Shown here: one piece after another, positions 52,940-61,679 of the stretch
Layout: every line of letters starts with the position of its first letter
Numbering within the stretch: the stretch's first letter is position 1
Assembly: GCF_000255295.1 (NCBI RefSeq)
Contig: NC_017030.1
Span: 1,612,001-1,676,000, forward strand
Source: Corallococcus coralloides DSM 2259
GTDB taxonomy: Bacteria > Myxococcota > Myxococcia > Myxococcales > Myxococcaceae
Reading direction: 5' to 3'
Length of the DNA: 64,000 nucleotides
The notes under the pieces: generated by a model
What the model was told of the DNA's origin: nothing
Seen by the model: only the letters and a program-made list of their open reading frames with translations
Databases searched by the model: none
Position numbers and translations under genes: made by a program

Positions 52940-54580
52940 CTACACCCGGACGACCAAGGGCACCACCAGGGTGCGCCGCGAGGTGTGCTGCTTGAAGGCC
53001 CGCTTCACCGCCTTCGTGAGCTCCTCCCGGACCAGGGCGTCGTCCCCCCGGAGCAGGGGGTTGAGCTCCTCGAAGAAGGCCCGCGCGTCCTGGGCCACCC
53101 GGGCCAGCACGCCCTGCTCGTCCGGGCTGAGGCCCTGGCCGGACAGCTGGGGCCCCGCCACCAGCGCCTGGGTGTCGCGCCTCAGCACCACCGCAGCGGC
53201 CACCACACCCGTTTCCGCCAGCCGGTTGCGCTCCACCAGCGTCTCCGGCGTCACCACCCCGTCCCCGGAGCGCTCCATCATGAGGCGCCCTGAAGGCACG
53301 CTGCCAGTGAAGCGGCCCCGTCCCTCCTCGAACGTCACCACGTCCCCGTCGTGGGCCAGCAGCAGGCCCTCCGCCGCCATGCCGGCCTCGCGCGCGGTGG
53401 TCAGGTGTCGGTGCAGGTGCCGGACTTCCCCATGCACGGGGATGAAGTTCCTGGGGCGGATCAGTTCGAGCACCCGGCGCTGCTGGGGGCGGCTGGCATG
53501 TCCGGAGACGTGCACGCCGGGCTCCACCTGCGCGTAGACGATGCGGGCGCCGCGCCAGTGGAGCTGGTCGAGCAGCGCGCCCACGGAGCGCTCGTTGCCG
53601 GGGATGGGCCGGGCGCTGACGATGACGGTGTCGCCGGGCTCCAGGCGCACGGGCCCATCCCCATTCGCCAGCTGGGTGAGGCCCGCGCGCGGTTCGCCTT
53701 GCGCGCCCGTGGTGAGCACCGCCACGCGGTGGGGCGCGAGCTTGGGCACGTTGTCCAGGTGCACGAAGAGCGAGTCGGGCACGTCCAGGTAGCCCATCTC
53801 CCGCGCCAGCTCCACGTTGCGCACCATGCTGCGGCCCTGGAGCGCGACGAGCCGGCCAGTGCGCTCGCACAGGTCCAGGAGGTGCCGGATGCGGTGGAGG
53901 TTGGAGGAGAACTGGGCCACGACGATGCGGCCCTTCGTCTCGTGGAAGAGGCGCTCGAAGGTGGTCTGCACCACGCGCTCGCTGCCGGTCTCGTCCACGT
54001 GCTCGGAGTTGGTGGAGTCCGACAGCAGGCACAGCACGCCTTCGTCGCCCGCCTCGCCCCAGCGCTCCAGGTCCGTCTTGAGGCCGTCGATGGGGTCGGG
54101 GTCCAGCTTGAAGTCGCCGGTGTGGATGACGGTGCCTTCGGGCGAGCGCACGATGAAGCCCACCGCGTCCGGCACGGTGTGCGTCACGCGCGTGGCCTCC
54201 ACGCTGAAGACGCTGCCCACGGGGAAGGGCGTGCGCGGCTCGACTTCGCGCAGGTCCGCCTTCACGCCCAGTTCCTCCAGGCGCTGACGCGCGAGCGCGA
54301 GCGTGAAGCGCGTGCCGTAGATGGGGACGGGCACGTCGCCCAGCAGGTAGGGGAGCGCGCCGATGTGGTCCTCGTGCCCGTGCGTGAGGAGCACGCCCTT
54401 GAGCTGGGCCGCGTTGCGCTGCAGGTGCGTGAAGTCCGGGACGATGATGTCCACGCCGGGCATTCCCGACGAGGGGAACATCAGGCCGGCGTCGATGAGC
54501 AGCATCTCCCCACGACAGGCGAGCACCATGGCGTTGAGGCCGATTTCGCCAAGGCCGCCCAGAGGGATGACGTGGAGCAT
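52940..54580 (-). CDS. rnj: Ribonuclease J
   Basis: Metallo-beta-lactamase/beta-CASP ribonuclease for mRNA decay and rRNA maturation, 546 residues. The zinc motif is THGHEDHIG (His67, His69, Asp71, His72), with further ligands in THTVPDAVGF and HTGDFKLDPDPIDG. The beta-CASP part has SDSTNSEHV and SGHASRPQQ, and NFIPVHGEVRHLHRH gives the last His motif. The C-terminal domain (residues ~450-546) matches RNase J. No ribosome-binding site is obvious before ATG 54580. yajQ follows after 30 nt. Its start lies 92 nt from the BlaI-type operators. Confidence 0.95.
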   Translation of the reverse strand: MLHVIPLGGLGEIGLNAMVLACRGEMLLIDAGLMFPSSGMPGVDIIVPDFTHLQRNAAQLKGVLLTHGHEDHIGALPYLLGDVPVPIYGTRFTLALARQRLEELGVKADLREVEPRTPFPVGSVFSVEATRVTHTVPDAVGFIVRSPEGTVIHTGDFKLDPDPIDGLKTDLERWGEAGDEGVLCLLSDSTNSEHVDETGSERVVQTTFERLFHETKGRIVVAQFSSNLHRIRHLLDLCERTGRLVALQGRSMVRNVELAREMGYLDVPDSLFVHLDNVPKLAPHRVAVLTTGAQGEPRAGLTQLANGDGPVRLEPGDTVIVSARPIPGNERSVGALLDQLHWRGARIVYAQVEPGVHVSGHASRPQQRRVLELIRPRNFIPVHGEVRHLHRHLTTAREAGMAAEGLLLAHDGDVVTFEEGRGRFTGSVPSGRLMMERSGDGVVTPETLVERNRLAETGVVAAAVVLRRDTQALVAGPQLSGQGLSPDEQGVLARVAQDARAFFEELNPLLRGDDALVREELTKAVKRAFKQHTSRRTLVVPLVVRV

Positions 54581-54727: not shown

Positions 54728-55132
54728 ATGCCCGTGACGAAGCCGCCGTCCGTCGAGGAGTCCAAGCCGCTCACGCCCGTGGAGCTGGAGCTGATGCAGC
54801 TCGTGTGGAGGCTGGGGGAGGTGAGCGTGGCGGACGTGCTCGCGGCGCTGCCGCCGGAGCGCAAGCTGGCCTACACGTCGGTGTCCACGGTGCTGCGCAT
54901 CCTGGAGCAGAAGGGCGTGGTGCAGAGCCGCAAGGAGGGGCGGGGGCACCTGTACTCGGCGCGGCTGTCTCGCGAGGCCTACGAGGCCCAGAGCGTGCGC
55001 CACCTGGTGGCGACGGTGTTCGACGGGACGCCGTCGTCGCTCGTGGCTCGGCTGGTGGAGGCGGTGCCGCTGTCCGCGGAGGAGGTGGAGCAGATCCGCA
55101 AGCTGCTGGGCCGCAAGGGAGGCCGGGGATGA
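54728..55132 (+). CDS. BlaI/MecI/CopY-family transcriptional repressor
   Basis: A winged-helix repressor of 134 residues. LTPVELELMQLVWRLGEVSV and VADVLAALPPERKLAYTSVSTVLRIL (nt ~54820-54900) are the wing-helix core with the TSVSTVL recognition helix, followed by EQKGVVQSRKEGRGHLYSA. The C-terminal helices dimerise and contain the linker that a partner protease cuts in BlaI. ATG 54728 is only 2 nt from GGAGG; GTG 54734 has better spacing and may be the real start. Its stop overlaps the M56 fusion gene by 4 nt (ATGA), the classic repressor-antirepressor pairing. Confidence 0.92.
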   Translation: MPVTKPPSVEESKPLTPVELELMQLVWRLGEVSVADVLAALPPERKLAYTSVSTVLRILEQKGVVQSRKEGRGHLYSARLSREAYEAQSVRHLVATVFDGTPSSLVARLVEAVPLSAEEVEQIRKLLGRKGGRG

Positions 55133-56721
55133 GCGCCTTTGTCCGGGACGTGCTGGCCGCGTACCTCACGGCGGCGGTGCTGGTGGCGGTGGGCTTCGGG
55201 CTCTTGCGCGCGGCGCTGGCGTTGGGGATGGAGCGGAGGCTGGACGCGCGGCAGACGCTGCGCGTGGGGCGGGTGACGCTGGGGCTGGCGGTGCTCCTGC
55301 CGTTCGTGGCGCTCGCGGCGCGGGAGTGGATGCCGTCGGCGCCGCTCTTCAAGTTCGAGCGTTCCCTGGTGGGCTACTCCGCGCCGCTGGTGCTTGTCGA
55401 AGCGCGGCCCGTGCTTGGCGCCGTGCCGGAGACGCGGTCCCCGGGCGCGGACCTGCCGTGGGCGAGGGTCGGAGTGGGGTTGGTAGGCGTGGGGGCGTTG
55501 GCGTTCCTGGCGTGGGAGCTGCGGCGGTATGCGCGCTTGCGGCGGAAGCTGGAGACGCTGCCGGTGCTTCGCCGCGTGGGTCGGGTGCGCGTGGTGCTGG
55601 GGGACGCGGCGGACGGCGCGTTCTCCGTGTGGTTTCCCGGCGGCGGCGCGTGGGCGGTGGTTCCCGCTGAGGTGTTGGAGGACTCGGAGGCGCTCCGGCT
55701 CACGGTGCGGCACGAGCTGCAACACCACCGGCAGCGGGACACGGTGTTTGCCTATGCGCGGCTGGGGTTCGACAGCGCCTTCTTCTGGAATCCGTTCGCT
55801 CGGGCGTTCTCGCGGTGGTTGGCGGAGCGTCAGGAGTTCGCCTGTGACGAGGCGCTCGTCACGGTGAAGCACGTGTCCGCGGATGCGTATGCGCGGTGCC
55901 TGTTGCAGGCGTCGCTGCGTGTCCCGGTAGCCCTTTCTCTTCCCGCCGGTGTCACCGGCATGTCCCACCCCACCGTCAGGAGGATCCACATGCTGTTCCA
56001 GCCTCGTCCCCGTAGCTCCGTGCGCACCCTGGGTCTGTCGTTGTCGCTCGCGTTGGTGCTCACGCCGCTGGCGTTGTGGGCGCAGGGCACGGTGCGGGGA
56101 CGCGCGGTGTCGCTGACGGAGGCGCGTGCGCTGGCGGAGGCGGGGCAGAAGGTGGGGGACCTGCCGGTGGTGGTGGATGCCGCCGTAGTCGAACAGCTCA
56201 ACAAGTTCGTCACCACGCGGAAGGGCCGCGACTTCATGCGCAAGGCGCTGGCGAACCTCCAGGAGCACCGAGAGGCGATGACGGGCACGCTGCGCTCGCG
56301 CTCCCTGCCGGAGGGGCTGCTCGCGGTGGCGATGGTGGAGTCGGCGGTGAGCAACCTGCCGGAGACGTCTCGCGAGCCGTCGATGGCGCCGGGGCCGAGG
56401 GGTGCGGGCGTGTGGATGTTCATTCCGGAGACGGCGCGTCGCTACGGCTTGAAGGTGGAGGCGGGACGCGATGAGCGGCTGGACGTGGCGCGGGAGACGG
56501 AGGCCGCCGCGGCCCTCTTCCAGGCGCTGTATGAGCGCTACGGCGACTGGCGGCTCGCGCTCGCGGCCTACAACCAGGGTGAGGGCGTGGTGGACCGCGT
56601 CCTCGCGGAGAGCGGTGTACGCGACGTGAGCGAGCTGGTACGCACCGGCAAGCTCAATGGCTACACCGCCACCGTGCAGGCTGGAGTGCTGCTGCTGCGC
56701 AACCCGCACCTGCTCGACTGA
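55129..56721 (+). CDS. M56 (BlaR1-like) membrane peptidase fused to a lytic transglycosylase domain
   Basis: A protein of 530 residues. The N-terminal half has BlaR1/MecR1-type membrane helices and a zinc protease site: HELQHH (His195, Glu196, His199) and a downstream E-x3-D in EFACDEALV (Glu236, Asp240). A further transmembrane segment lies at ~300-318. Instead of a penicillin-binding sensor the C-terminus is an SLT/MltD-like lytic transglycosylase: catalytic-type Glu404 in LLAVAMVESAVSNLPE, then GVWMFIPETARRYGLKV and LALAAYNQGEGVVDRVL. Predicted: membrane protease inactivating the co-encoded BlaI repressor, with a wall-binding or wall-cutting external domain. It is translationally coupled to the repressor. 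Confidence 0.85.
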   Translation: MSAFVRDVLAAYLTAAVLVAVGFGLLRAALALGMERRLDARQTLRVGRVTLGLAVLLPFVALAAREWMPSAPLFKFERSLVGYSAPLVLVEARPVLGAVPETRSPGADLPWARVGVGLVGVGALAFLAWELRRYARLRRKLETLPVLRRVGRVRVVLGDAADGAFSVWFPGGGAWAVVPAEVLEDSEALRLTVRHELQHHRQRDTVFAYARLGFDSAFFWNPFARAFSRWLAERQEFACDEALVTVKHVSADAYARCLLQASLRVPVALSLPAGVTGMSHPTVRRIHMLFQPRPRSSVRTLGLSLSLALVLTPLALWAQGTVRGRAVSLTEARALAEAGQKVGDLPVVVDAAVVEQLNKFVTTRKGRDFMRKALANLQEHREAMTGTLRSRSLPEGLLAVAMVESAVSNLPETSREPSMAPGPRGAGVWMFIPETARRYGLKVEAGRDERLDVARETEAAAALFQALYERYGDWRLALAAYNQGEGVVDRVLAESGVRDVSELVRTGKLNGYTATVQAGVLLLRNPHLLD

Positions 56722-56900
56722 GCGGTGGATCGCGGTGCCGGTGCGTCGCGCTGGCGCCGCGTCCTGCTGCTGTAGCCCGCCACCGTGCAGGCCGGAGTGC
56801 TGCTGCTGTGCAACCCGCACCTGCTCGACTGAGCGGTGGAGCGCGGTGCCGGTGCGTGTCGCGCGGGTGCCGCGTCCTGCTGCAGTAGCCCTCCACCGTG
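56667..56900. repeat. Tandem duplication of the 3' end of the M56/transglycosylase gene
   Basis: The last ~55 coding nt plus ~56 nt of downstream sequence (copy 1, 56667-56777) are repeated at 56778-56890 with about 90% identity, and a third copy begins at 56891 but breaks off after about 10 nt. Periods are 111 and 113 bp. Copy 2 still encodes the terminal VLLL-(C)-NPHLLD with its stop, so it is a detached, non-translated gene end. No other ORF is supported in 56722-57056; a 14-bp palindrome GTCCGGGCCCGGAC lies at 56931-56944. Confidence 0.85.
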
Positions 56901-57056
56901 CTTTTCCCGCGCGGTGATGACCTGTGCAGCGTCCGGGCCCGGACGCCGCATCTGTCAGGCTGCCGGGGAATGTCCCTGCGGCGCCCGGGTTCAGATGCGC
57001 GCCACCCTGCTTTCGCGCGAGGATGGCGGCGCTCAGCGCCAGGGGTGGGAAACGCC

Positions 57057-58088: not shown

Positions 58089-60911
58089 TCAGGACATCGG
58101 CGTGGAGCCTTCCGGCGGCGCACGGGAGATCCACGCGGCGATGAACACATCCAATTCGCCTCGCATCACGTCCTTCACGCGAGGCGTCCCCGCGCCCGTG
58201 CGTGGATCCTCCACGCGTGCTCCACGGCCCAGGAAGTAGCGGCGGGCCTCGTCGGTGCTGGCGCCCTGGCCGGCGACGACGCGCGCGGCGATGCCCTTGA
58301 GCTCGTCCAGCTCCCCGGCGCCAATGAGCGTGAGCACGCGGCCCGTGGCCTCGTCCTTCGCGGTGACCTCGTTGCGCACGCGTTGGAGGTACTCGCCCTC
58401 GCGGCTCTTCACCGGCCGGCCCTCCAGCACCAGCAGCTCCCGCTCCACCTCCTCCAGCGGTCCGCCCCGGTGCACGCGCACGTACGCGCGCTGGCGCTTC
58501 TCGTCCTCCAGGCGGCGGTGCAGCCCCGCCTCTCCCGCGAGGAACCCATACGCGCCTGGCCCTGCGATGCGCACCACCACGCGCGCGGGAGCGTCCGCCT
58601 CCGCGACGGCGGTGGCCTCGTAGCCCCGGCGCTGCGCCCAGCCCAGGTACATGGTGGCCAGCTCCTGCACCCACACGTCCTGCAGCTCCGACGCGTCGCT
58701 GGCGCAGATGTCCACCAGCGCCTCGTTGTCCAACGTCGTGGCCCCGGCGGCCCGCAGTGCCTCCGCCATCTGGACCTCGCGCGCGACCTCCTCCACCTGC
58801 TTCGCGGCGGAGCCCAGCTGCACCTCGTTCTTCGCCTCGCGCACCAGCCGGCGCCCGAACTGGCACGCGGCCTCCAGGCGGTCCAGCTCTCCCAGCTGCG
58901 CCTCCACCGTGCGGAAGGCGCGGAGGACGTCCGCCGCGCGCAGCGAGTCGTCCCAGAGGTTGGGCGCCTGAGTCTCCGCGAGCAGCGCCGCGCGGCGTGC
59001 CTCCAGCTCCGACCGTCCCGTGGACTCCGCGAGCGCGCGCGCACGGCCCACCAGCCGGTCCATTTCAATCAGCAGCGACTTGCGGTCCAGCCGGCGCTTC
59101 ACCGCCGCGGCCTTTGGCGTGGGCAACAGCAGCTGCGCCGTCACCTCGCGGGGCGGTGGCACGGGCTCCGCGACCGCGACCACGCGGCCTCCCGGACGGG
59201 CCTCCACGCGCACGGGCGTGCCCGGCGGCAGCGGCCTGCGCGCGATCTCCACCGCGAGCGCCGCGGTGAGCGTCTTCTCGATTTCACGCTGCAGGTAGCG
59301 CGCGCCGAACTGCGGCGAATAGCCGCGCTCCACCAGCCGGTCCACCACCTCCGGTGTCACCTCCACGTCCAGGGCGCGGGCGCGGATGCCCTCGCGCTCC
59401 AGCACGCGGCCCACCTCGCGCTGGGCAATCTTGCGGATGTCCACGCGCGACAGCGGACGGAAGTGGCAGATGGCGTCGAAGCGGTTGAGGAACTCCGGGC
59501 GGAAGGCCTCCGCGATGCGGCGGTCCACCTCCGACACCTGCTCCTCGGCGCGCTTGTGCGCGGCGAAGCCCAGGCCCGCCTCGCGGTACACCTCCGAGCC
59601 CACGTTGGACGTGGCCACGATGAGCGTGTTGTTGCACGACACCGCTTCACCCGCGCCGTTGACGAAGGTGCCCTCGTCGAAGAGCTGGAGGAAGCGGTCG
59701 TGCACGCTGCGCGCGGCCTTCTCGAACTCGTCCAGCAGCAGCACGGTGAACACCTTGCCGTCGAGCAGCGCGGACAGCTCTCCACGCCGCGTCTCCAGCG
59801 CGGGCGCCCACGACGCGCCGAAGGGGACGCTCTCGTCGCCGTCGTTGGGGTAGTCCGCCATGTTCAGGCGCACCAGCCTGTCGGCGGAGCCGAAGAGGTA
59901 CTCCGCCAGCAGCTTCGCCAGCTGCGTCTTGCCCACGCCCGTGGGCCCGGCGAAGAGGAACACGCCCAGCGGGCGGCGCGGGTCGTTGAGCCCCGCCTTG
60001 AGCAGCGCCACCGAGCGCAGCACCGCGGCCACCGCGTCCGTCTGGCCGAGCAGCCGCTCCCCGAAGAAGCGCTCCGTCTCCTCCAGGTCCAGCGGCATCG
60101 CGTCGTCCACGACGAAGCGGGGCAGGCGCGTGGCGGCGCAGAAGCGGGTGAGCACGTCCTCCGGCCCCACGTGGTCGCGCGCCACGCCCGCGGCCTCCGC
60201 CGCCGTCTCCTTGAGCAGCTCGATGGCCTTGCGCGGCATGTGCTGCGCCAGGAGGAACTTCGCGGACAGCCGCAGCGCCAGGTCGCACGCGGCCGGGTCG
60301 ATGGGCAGCCGCAGCTCGCGCTCCAGCTCCTCCGCCACGCGGCCGACAATCCAGCGCGCCTTCTCCAGCGGCGGCTCGTTCAGCGGCAGCAGGTGGAGCC
60401 GCTCGGCCAGGGCCTCGTCGGCGCGCAGCAGCTCCTGCACGCGCTTGGGTTCGGTCTCGAAGATGAAGCGCAGGCCGCCGGTGCGCAGCGCGCGCACGGC
60501 CACCGGCGCCAGGGGGCCGCCCAGGGCCACCGGCAGGTCGCGGATGTAGACGATGGGGCAGGGGTGGCGGCCCAGGTGGGTGAGCAGCTCCTCGAAGGAC
60601 TCGGCCGCCTGGCGCTGGGTGCTGCGCGCCAGGATGTTCGCGACGGACACCTCCACGAGCCGCGCCTGGGCCAGGTCGCCGTCCACGCGTCCTTCCGCGA
60701 TGCGGCGAGCCACCTCCTGCACGAGCGCGCTCTTGCCCACGCCGGGCTCGCCCGCCAGCAGCGGGTGCTTGCCTCCGCGCGCCAGGAGCCCCAGCACCTC
60801 CGTCACGGAGGTGTCCATGCCGTGGGCGGCCGGCAGCTTCCCCTCGCGCGCCATCGCGGTGAGGTCGCGGTCGATGAGCCGCTCCTGGTCTTCGTTCTTC
60901 CTCGTCGCCAT
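58089..60911 (-). CDS. Clp-type AAA+ ATPase fused to a release-factor-2-like domain lacking GGQ
   Basis: A protein of 940 residues. There is no Clp N-domain. AAA1 has Walker A GEPGVGKS (54-61) but a degraded Walker B (IVYIRDLP). AAA2 is intact: Walker A GPTGVGKT (322-329), Walker B VLLLDEFEKA, sensor 1 IVATSNVGSE and sensor 2 FGARYLQREIE. From ~605 to 930 the sequence follows bacterial RF2 (PrfB): APNLWDDSLRAADVL, MYLGWAQRRGYEAT, GAYGFLAGEAGLHR and the RF2 C-terminal EDPRTGAGTPRVKDVMRGELDVF. The catalytic GGQ and the SPF stop-codon tripeptide are both missing. The protein is probably an unfoldase recruited to ribosomes or the ribosomal A site. It stands alone. Confidence 0.85.
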   Translation of the reverse strand: MATRKNEDQERLIDRDLTAMAREGKLPAAHGMDTSVTEVLGLLARGGKHPLLAGEPGVGKSALVQEVARRIAEGRVDGDLAQARLVEVSVANILARSTQRQAAESFEELLTHLGRHPCPIVYIRDLPVALGGPLAPVAVRALRTGGLRFIFETEPKRVQELLRADEALAERLHLLPLNEPPLEKARWIVGRVAEELERELRLPIDPAACDLALRLSAKFLLAQHMPRKAIELLKETAAEAAGVARDHVGPEDVLTRFCAATRLPRFVVDDAMPLDLEETERFFGERLLGQTDAVAAVLRSVALLKAGLNDPRRPLGVFLFAGPTGVGKTQLAKLLAEYLFGSADRLVRLNMADYPNDGDESVPFGASWAPALETRRGELSALLDGKVFTVLLLDEFEKAARSVHDRFLQLFDEGTFVNGAGEAVSCNNTLIVATSNVGSEVYREAGLGFAAHKRAEEQVSEVDRRIAEAFRPEFLNRFDAICHFRPLSRVDIRKIAQREVGRVLEREGIRARALDVEVTPEVVDRLVERGYSPQFGARYLQREIEKTLTAALAVEIARRPLPPGTPVRVEARPGGRVVAVAEPVPPPREVTAQLLLPTPKAAAVKRRLDRKSLLIEMDRLVGRARALAESTGRSELEARRAALLAETQAPNLWDDSLRAADVLRAFRTVEAQLGELDRLEAACQFGRRLVREAKNEVQLGSAAKQVEEVAREVQMAEALRAAGATTLDNEALVDICASDASELQDVWVQELATMYLGWAQRRGYEATAVAEADAPARVVVRIAGPGAYGFLAGEAGLHRRLEDEKRQRAYVRVHRGGPLEEVERELLVLEGRPVKSREGEYLQRVRNEVTAKDEATGRVLTLIGAGELDELKGIAARVVAGQGASTDEARRYFLGRGARVEDPRTGAGTPRVKDVMRGELDVFIAAWISRAPPEGSTPMS

Positions 60912-61001: not shown

Positions 61002-61544
61002 TTACGCTTCCAGCTCCGTGTGCCAGTAGGCCACGTCCCTCAGGAACTTGCGCCAGGACAGGGGCAGGCCCTTCTCCATGAGGAACGACACGACCAGTGC
61101 GTCCGGCAGCCGCTTCGGCTTCGCGGGCACGGTGCGCAGCGTCATCCGCGCCTGCGCCGGGGTGCGGTTGCCCTTCTTCTGGTTGCAGGGCACGCAGGCG
61201 ATGACGATGTTGTCCCAGCTCGTGCGGCCACCCTGCGCGCGCGGCAGCACGTGGTCGTACGTGGCCTCCGGGCGGGTCACCTTGCGGCCGCAGTACTGGC
61301 AGCGGCACTGGTCGCGCTGGTAGACGTTCTCGCGGCTGAAGCGCACGCCGCGCGGGCCCTTCCACAGGGCGCGCACGAAGCGGATGACGGACGGCATGCG
61401 CAGCTCCACCGTCACCGAGCGGATGACGCGGTCTTCGTACTCCTCGACGACCTCCACCTTGCCCTGGACGAGCAGCATGACGGCGCGTTGCCACGGGATG
61501 CGTGCGACGGGTTCGTAGGACTGGCTCAGCACCAGCGTTTCCAT
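61002..61544 (-). CDS. HNH endonuclease family protein
   Basis: A protein of 180 residues with an HNH/zinc-finger core: CRCQYCGRKV, ATYDHVLPRAQGG (catalytic-type His), SWDNIVIACVPCNQKKGNRTP (Asn and second Cys pair). The N-terminal METLVLSQSYEPVARIPWQRA is shared by a widespread stand-alone HNH family of unknown role. ATG 61544 has AAAGG 10 nt upstream; the frame open to 61679 runs through the tRNA-like sequence and is not used. The coding sequence starts 24 nt downstream of a tRNA-Trp-like gene on the same strand. Confidence 0.85.
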   Translation of the reverse strand: METLVLSQSYEPVARIPWQRAVMLLVQGKVEVVEEYEDRVIRSVTVELRMPSVIRFVRALWKGPRGVRFSRENVYQRDQCRCQYCGRKVTRPEATYDHVLPRAQGGRTSWDNIVIACVPCNQKKGNRTPAQARMTLRTVPAKPKRLPDALVVSFLMEKGLPLSWRKFLRDVAYWHTELEA

Positions 61545-61568
61545 GACACAGGGGCCTTTCGGGCGGGA

Positions 61569-61636
61569 CAGGCCGCCAGGGAGTCGAACCCTGCTCGCCC
61601 GGATTTGGAGTCCAGACGGCACCCGGTGCGCGGCCT
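61569..61636 (-). tRNA. tRNA-Trp(CCA)-like gene with truncated D arm
   Basis: The reverse strand folds as a tRNA. The acceptor AGGCCGC (61636-61630) pairs perfectly with GCGGCCT (61576-61570), discriminator G at 61569. The anticodon stem is CTGGA/TCCGG (one T-G pair) around loop CTCCAAA (61610-61604), anticodon CCA. A 5-nt variable loop is followed by a perfect T arm, CAGGG-TTCGACT-CCCTG. Only 14 nt, GC-ACCGGGTGCC-GT, stand between acceptor and anticodon stems, where about 19 are normal, so the D arm is reduced to a 4-bp mini-hairpin. A1-U72, G73 and CCA match tRNA-Trp identity. No CCA end is encoded. Confidence 0.55.
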
Positions 61637-61679
61637 TTGTGTGGGACTGGGAAGCGGAAGGTGAGCGGCGCCCGGACAT

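Follow-up and report, generated by a model that had tools for sequence, protein, structure and literature searches.

A Clp-type two-ring ATPase continuous with a release factor 2-derived domain in Corallococcus coralloides and its family

Why should a Clp-type ATPase run into a release factor, and what would such a chain do? The question is raised by one gene in a 64,000-nucleotide stretch of the Corallococcus coralloides DSM 2259 genome (assembly GCF_000255295.1, contig NC_017030.1, positions 1,612,001 to 1,676,000), here called the window, in whose coordinates all positions are given. The open reading frame (ORF) at 58089-60911 on the minus strand, which also carries all features of the gene described below, encodes 940 residues: a two-ring ClpA/ClpC-like AAA+ ATPase, then about 330 C-terminal residues that match release factor 2 (RF2, PrfB). 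An initial annotation of this DNA had described a two-ring Clp-type ATPase leading directly into about 325 residues collinear with RF2, and profile searches and the predicted fold bear this description out. Since the parts that read stop codons and release peptides have been lost, the former release factor now probably serves as an arm for targeting.

Layout of the fusion and origin of its two halves

The NCBIfam ClpA profile aligned to residues 14-569 of the fusion, and Pfam recognized AAA_2 at residues 313-481 (E = 7.5e-34) followed by ClpB_D2-small at residues 487-569 (E = 4.1e-14). The chain holds two tandem AAA+ modules, as expected of a double-ring Hsp100/Clp protein. Ring 1 (D1) covers about residues 12-245 (60177-60878), as judged from the start of the ClpA profile match and from an alignment to ClpC, and ring 2 (D2) about residues 270-572 (59196-60104). 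Residue 14 corresponds to position 172 of the ClpA profile, and the N-domain for substrates and adaptors is missing. There is no M-domain either, since fusion residues 240 to 248 bridge ClpC residues 402 to 471 in the alignment. The scores against the curated profiles were low, 275 bits for ClpA (cut-off 993) and 288 bits for ClpB (cut-off 1232), and the missing M-domain and the presence of a docking tripeptide (below) further separate the protein from ClpB. Its rings make the fusion an Hsp100 ATPase, yet curated scores identify it neither as ClpA nor as ClpB.

Pfam, NCBIfam, a Protein Data Bank (PDB) sequence search and structure comparison all place the RF2-derived domain at about residues 605-932 (58116-59099). 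Within it, residues 637-799 (58515-59003) score 50.4 bits with Pfam PCRF, whose cut-off is 24. The NCBIfam prfB profile matched at E = 1.1e-21, with 77 bits against a cut-off of 370; the TIGR model for prfA reached only 22 bits. RF2 chains were retrieved from the PDB at E values of about 3e-14. A second piece, collinear with the RF2 C-terminus, does not reach significance by itself (8.3 bits, i-Evalue 14); the RF-1 domain (PF00472) did not rise above its cut-off in this part of the chain, where Pfam reported only PCRF and one chance family.

An AlphaFold2 model of the release factor part, computed from 36 family sequences, reached a mean predicted local distance difference test score (pLDDT) of 79.9 and a predicted template modelling score (pTM) of 0.62. 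Foldseek matched it to the free E. coli RF2 structure 1gqe (E = 8.6e-16), and all 50 matches listed were RF2 or RF1 chains. Template modelling scores by model length were 0.67 against 1gqe; two pre-accommodated RF2s and the free RF2 of T. thermophilus gave 0.46-0.49, and most other ribosome-bound RF2s 0.38-0.40. VIA-align superposed the model on 1gqe, a compact form of RF2 (PMC5378476), with a Z score of 21.8 over 315 residues at a root-mean-square deviation (rmsd) of 4.2; for full-length ribosome-bound RF2 chains the rmsd was about 9-10, and for the pre-accommodated 5mdw it was 10.2. The C-terminal part is RF2-derived by sequence and predicted fold, but it is not an RF2.

Motifs lost and kept

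We compared the motor motifs across 34 full or near-full fusion sequences and aligned six fusion sequences to E. coli ClpA and ClpB and to other Clp ATPases of the C. coralloides genome, among whose nine D2-small loci two gave no match and two (L136 and L137) aligned too poorly to be judged. The D1 Walker A motif GEPGVGKS (residues 54-61, 60729-60752) is intact and conserved in all 32 rows that cover it, the two other rows being truncated. The D1 Walker B motif is degenerate: at residues 120-125 (60537-60554) the fusion has IVYIRD where ClpA and ClpB have FIDE, and the DE pair is RD in 31 and PD in one of the 32 rows that cover the site. The D1 pore loop KYRG has been lost in the family, and the first arginine of the D1 RRF pair is substituted in the rows shown. 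In D2, the Walker A motif GPTGVGKT (residues 322-329, 59925-59948), the Walker B motif (VLLLDE at residues 390-395, 59727-59744, conserved as LLLDE), the arginine-finger region FLNRF and the sensor 2 motif GAR are all conserved. The GYVG pore loop of D2 is replaced; the region reads FGASWA (residues 364-369, 59805-59822), with Trp368 nearby present in 33 of the 33 rows covering the site. The degraded Walker B motif of ring 1 had already been recognized in the initial annotation; ring 2, described there as intact, is so at its ATP site, arginine-finger region and sensor 2, but not in its pore loop.

A feature that the initial annotation had missed is the tripeptide LGF at residues 447-449 (59565-59573), which aligns with the IGL of E. 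coli ClpA. The pattern [LIMV]GF was found in all 93 ORFs that hold the D2 Walker A motif (92 by pattern and L035 by eye), in a collection of 105 family ORFs that includes genomes fetched twice, so that one genome may count double among the 93. C. coralloides has two other Clp ATPases with MGF or VGF in this column and two more that lack the tripeptide, as E. coli ClpB does. A loop of this type stabilizes binding to the ClpP peptidase and tells ClpC, which partners ClpP, apart from ClpB (PMC10149685); the fusion carries this [LIV]G[FL] marker, and its genome encodes two ClpP-family proteins. The loop points to a proteolytic output, which the initial annotation had not considered.

The release factor part was aligned with 22 RF2s, using 36 fusion sequences. 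Just after HRR, at residues 801-806 (58494-58511), the stop-codon loop of RF2 is deleted, and S205, P206 and F207 of the SPF motif face a gap in all 36 fusions, as the initial annotation had proposed. Its further statement that the GGQ loop is absent holds for the first glycine (G250) and the glutamine (Q252), lost in 36 of 36, but not for the second glycine (G251), retained in every sequence as x-G-x. The glutamine is replaced by R (16 sequences), T (6), E, S or A (4 each), L or N (1 each); in C. coralloides the triplet is E-G-E (residues 838-840, 58392-58400). The switch-loop aromatic W/F319 is also lost throughout (a gap in 34 sequences, Thr in two), R213 is retained in all 36, and the GGQ domain is shortened relative to RF2. 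We looked for GGQ surviving in some members: the string occurs in seven of the 105 ORFs, at eight places, in the linker or ahead of the RRY stretch and never in the catalytic column.

The losses are concentrated where RF2 does its work. Counting as conserved the positions identical in at least 90% of the 22 RF2s, as kept those with the same residue in at least 75% of 35 fusion rows, and using block limits that we set ourselves for the GGQ domain, SPF loop, switch loop and other blocks, we found that the GGQ domain keeps 1 of 26 conserved positions, the SPF loop 1 of 7 and the switch loop none of 4. Elsewhere, domain 1 keeps 5 of 14, domain 2a 11 of 32 and the C-terminus 6 of 16, giving 2 of 37 for catalysis, decoding and switching against 22 of 67 for the rest. 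Domain 2b keeps none of 5 though it contains no named motif, and the GxGG block keeps none of 2. The most conserved stretch of the release factor part, RRY...EDPRTGxxTPRxKDVxRGExDxFIAAWxxR in the family alignment, lies at residues 890-932 (58116-58244).

Distribution, selection and origin

We surveyed 195 Myxococcota genomes, 96 of them from the family of C. coralloides and one from a sister family, scoring part of the candidates in each genome (four for continuity from ATPase to release factor, up to 11 for the release factor part). Family-level matches to the release factor part were found in 86 of the 96 family genomes and in the sister-family genome; ten family genomes had none (G060, G102, G109, G140-G145 and G152). 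The other 98 genomes gave only prfB/prfA-level matches or none, among the matches listed. In the scan with the family profile, family-level scores went down to 142 bits (143.2 for the G111 fragment), prfB-level scores reached at most 93 bits, and neither a match with a score between these values nor a form intermediate between fusion and prfB was listed. In 79 of the 87 carriers a single match runs from the ATPase, starting in ring 1 (in G067 only at its end), into the release factor part, which rules out an assembly artefact. Of the remaining carriers, two end inside the ATPase because their contigs stop there (G068, G106), four hold fragments or splits (G072, G111, G133, G139), one reads in two frames (G127) and one keeps a remnant (G104).

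Two C-terminal patterns, which distant relatives could escape, were also run against 84,980 species genomes and gave 122 stretches, of which 49 were confirmed as loci. These carry the names of myxobacterial genera, Myxococcaceae, Archangiaceae or Myxococcales, with one exception labelled Comamonas sp. KCTC 72670 (L072, BNCN01000002.1). There, the gene and its surroundings over about 8 kb are 87% identical to two Myxococcus loci (L068 and L070), and the sequence, with 70% GC, is probably a mislabelled Myxococcus. Our two alignments (A2 and A3) took 33 and 35 of the 49 loci, respectively, the omitted ones being fragments or close relatives of rows that were kept.

The release factor part is under purifying selection. 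In five pairs drawn from seven sequences, the ratio of non-synonymous to synonymous substitution rates (dN/dS) was 0.07-0.17 for this part, 0.01-0.10 for D2 and 0.06-0.15 for D1.

In a tree with 12 of the 36 release factor parts, the fusions formed one group (support 100/100) on a branch of length 2.67. They fell outside the family's own prfB, which argues against descent from it; their exact position is unsafe because of long-branch effects. Nevertheless, the single group on a long branch, together with a match to prfB far above that to prfA, makes a single fusion of one RF2-type copy probable. A dead RF2 that is intact and stands by itself did not turn up in the surveyed genomes. The apparent candidate, in G104 (L034, 8100-9284; L099 is the same stretch), adjoins ORFs that read as tyrosine-recombinase-like and HslU-like (judged from the ORFs, not by profiles). 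It is a fusion with frame changes that lost its ATPase and is probably decaying, since stretches resembling the N-terminus and linker of the fusion lie upstream and in other frames. An organization as two separate genes was likewise rejected: the split at the linker in G127 (L138) comes from a 2-base difference in a GC-repeat relative to three relatives and may be either real or a sequencing error, and the breaks at the linker in G133 and L071 fall where the contigs end.

Candidate functions and genomic setting

With a probability of roughly one half, we take the fusion to be a lineage-specific Hsp100/Clp unfoldase that partners ClpP and recruits clients or adaptors through an RF2-derived arm. 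An RF2 copy joined behind ring 2 would have been converted into this recruiter. Subunits would assemble as a ring, in which D1 would serve as a scaffold that binds nucleotide with little or no hydrolysis, while D2 would be the motor. Docking on ClpP would be through the conserved [LIMV]GF loops, and the arm would choose what the motor receives, ribosome-bound complexes being one candidate client. The arm may be locked in the compact shape of free RF2, given that the switch loop is gone. This proposal is supported by the conserved ATP site, arginine-finger region and sensor 2 of D2, by the [LIMV]GF tripeptide and the two ClpP-family genes, by a release factor fold that is predicted whole while its functional positions are erased, by the low dN/dS of that part, and by the absence of the usual N-domain, the substrate site in ClpB and ClpC (PMC10149685). 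The fold, the pattern of motif losses and retentions, the conservation and the purifying selection all derive from sequence and prediction.

Several observations weigh against it. The canonical aromatic pore loops are missing from both rings, so that threading of a client is not assured; the docking tripeptide is short and is no proof of ClpP binding; and an arm placed C-terminal to D2 might crowd the ClpP face. The model of the full-length fusion had a pTM of only 0.49, which means that the domain arrangement is not reliably predicted. The last 40 residues, the most conserved of the release factor part, are those of lowest confidence in its model, and the compact shape of the arm is weakly supported, since 5mdw also fits at the larger rmsd given above. 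Finally, gene neighbourhood at 28 loci gave no functional hint, the largest cluster, upstream of the fusion, recurring in 7 of 28 and the next in 5 of 28. This comparison is a weak one, with simple gene calls from codon-position GC, cuts at contig ends and profiles run on the window's neighbours only.

A narrower form of the ClpP-partner reading is that the RF2-derived arm binds an empty A site or the L11 stalk while a nascent chain, a factor or a ribosomal protein is pulled out or degraded by the motor, as a ribosome quality-control device; we consider this doubtful. In RF2, the switch loop (Trp319) touches A1492 and bridges domains, and domain 1 binds the L11 stalk (PMC5378476). The initial annotation had proposed docking in the A site in the manner of a release factor. 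As stated, this is not supported: RF2's catalytic, decoding and switch contact motifs, the parts it uses there, have been selectively erased in all 36 sequences, and the GxGG block has gone with them. Docking through other surfaces, such as domain 1 at the L11 stalk, may still occur. The predicted fold is retained over its full length, and R33, P44, W47, A53 and E114 are among the RF2-conserved residues that domain 1 retains, though these amount to only five of 14. Net charge is a mild point for RNA contact: it ranges from -7 to +5 in 35 fusion release factor parts (-2 in the window sequence) and from -27 to -3 in the 22 RF2 rows, some of which contain non-coding 5' translation. The genome already has, away from the fusion, a transfer-messenger RNA (tmRNA) and an ArfB-like gene, which speaks against this reading. 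It is a single contig of 10.08 Mb with its own prfA and prfB elsewhere, as the initial annotation had wished to see established. A search for the RF-1 domain listed three genes, the fusion not among them; the third encodes a protein of 158 residues, which we call ArfB-like on account of its size. Were the arm to act on translation nevertheless, the fusion might be the first bacterial example of a single-chain protease directed at ribosomes or translation factors, an RF2-shaped arm on a ClpP-coupled AAA+ motor; this too is a tentative suggestion. Such a protease might, just as tentatively, recognize its target by the shape of RF2, reading no codon and releasing no peptide.

Somewhat less likely still is a remodeller that works independently of ClpP, a chaperone ring that threads its clients partly or not at all and is organized or regulated by the RF2 arm. 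In its favour, the D1 Walker B motif and the canonical pore loops of both rings are gone; against it, the strictly conserved [LIMV]GF would have no obvious use without ClpP. That the release factor part is an inert leftover of an old fusion is very improbable: it drifts faster than D2 and is missing in ten of 96 family genomes, but its dN/dS lies far below 1, 44 of its columns are invariant over 36 sequences, and the other 86 genomes keep it.

How does the fusion compare with known systems? Like ClpA and ClpC it has two AAA+ rings, D1 leading straight into D2, [LIMV]GF at the docking position and a D2 ATP site, but it lacks the N-domain, D1 Walker B, D1 pore loop and GYVG of D2, scores far below the ClpA cut-off and bears an extra RF2-derived C-terminal domain. 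With RF2 it shares the PCRF domain and a predicted full fold, collinear throughout, but not SPF, the GGQ glutamine or the switch-loop aromatic; its GGQ domain is shortened and a motor is attached. ClpI of Actinomycetota is likewise an additional, lineage-specific class next to the usual Clp proteins and carries an LGF-type loop in one of its subtypes, but its ATPase modules are intact and it possesses both an N-domain and an M-domain (PMC10149685); the term 'release factor' does not occur in the main text of that paper. PrfH and ArfB belong to the same bacterial release factor superfamily and act outside normal termination, but they retain the catalytic glutamine, and no fused ATPase is described for them in section 2.4 of the survey of bacterial release factor families by Burroughs and Aravind (PMC6514570), in whose main text 'myxo', 'clpa' and 'clpb' are also absent. 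The nearest functional idea, by analogy, is Vms1/ANKZF1 with Cdc48, where ribosome quality control links a release factor-like protein with an AAA+ unfoldase; these proteins are eukaryotic, belong to the structurally unrelated aeRF-1 superfamily and are partners rather than one chain (PMC6514570), and Vms1 is unrelated to the fusion in sequence. The initial annotation knew of no system with this architecture, and our literature searches, for which subscription papers were mostly out of reach, found no description of a Clp ATPase-RF2 fusion among the papers listed. In M. xanthus, the Clp ATPase genes MXAN_4823-4825 and MXAN_4832 are upregulated under chloramphenicol (PMC6617876); the fusion ortholog of this species may be one of the Clp genes named in PMC11423568 or PMC6617876.

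Around the fusion, an HNH endonuclease gene (61002-61679, minus strand) lies directly upstream, and its cluster is the one also found upstream in some close genera, in 7 of 28 loci. An RNase J gene (52940-54580, minus strand) lies downstream, its cluster recurring in 4 of 28 loci. The window also holds an ORF on the plus strand (55132-56718) that combines a BlaR1-type M56 peptidase and an SLT transglycosylase domain in one chain, directly preceded by a BlaI-type repressor gene (54728-55132). At 56654-56950 the translations contain near-identical short units, and a direct repeat seems present in the DNA.

All together, a release factor fold without its known catalytic and decoding parts has stayed under selection throughout the family, attached as an arm to an unfolding motor. 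Should this arm target ribosomes, the fusion would give bacteria something comparable to the eukaryotic coupling of ribosome rescue with Cdc48; should it not, the fusion would clearly exemplify how a translation factor came to serve as an adaptor for a protease. Myxococcus is genetically tractable, and either reading can be tested there.

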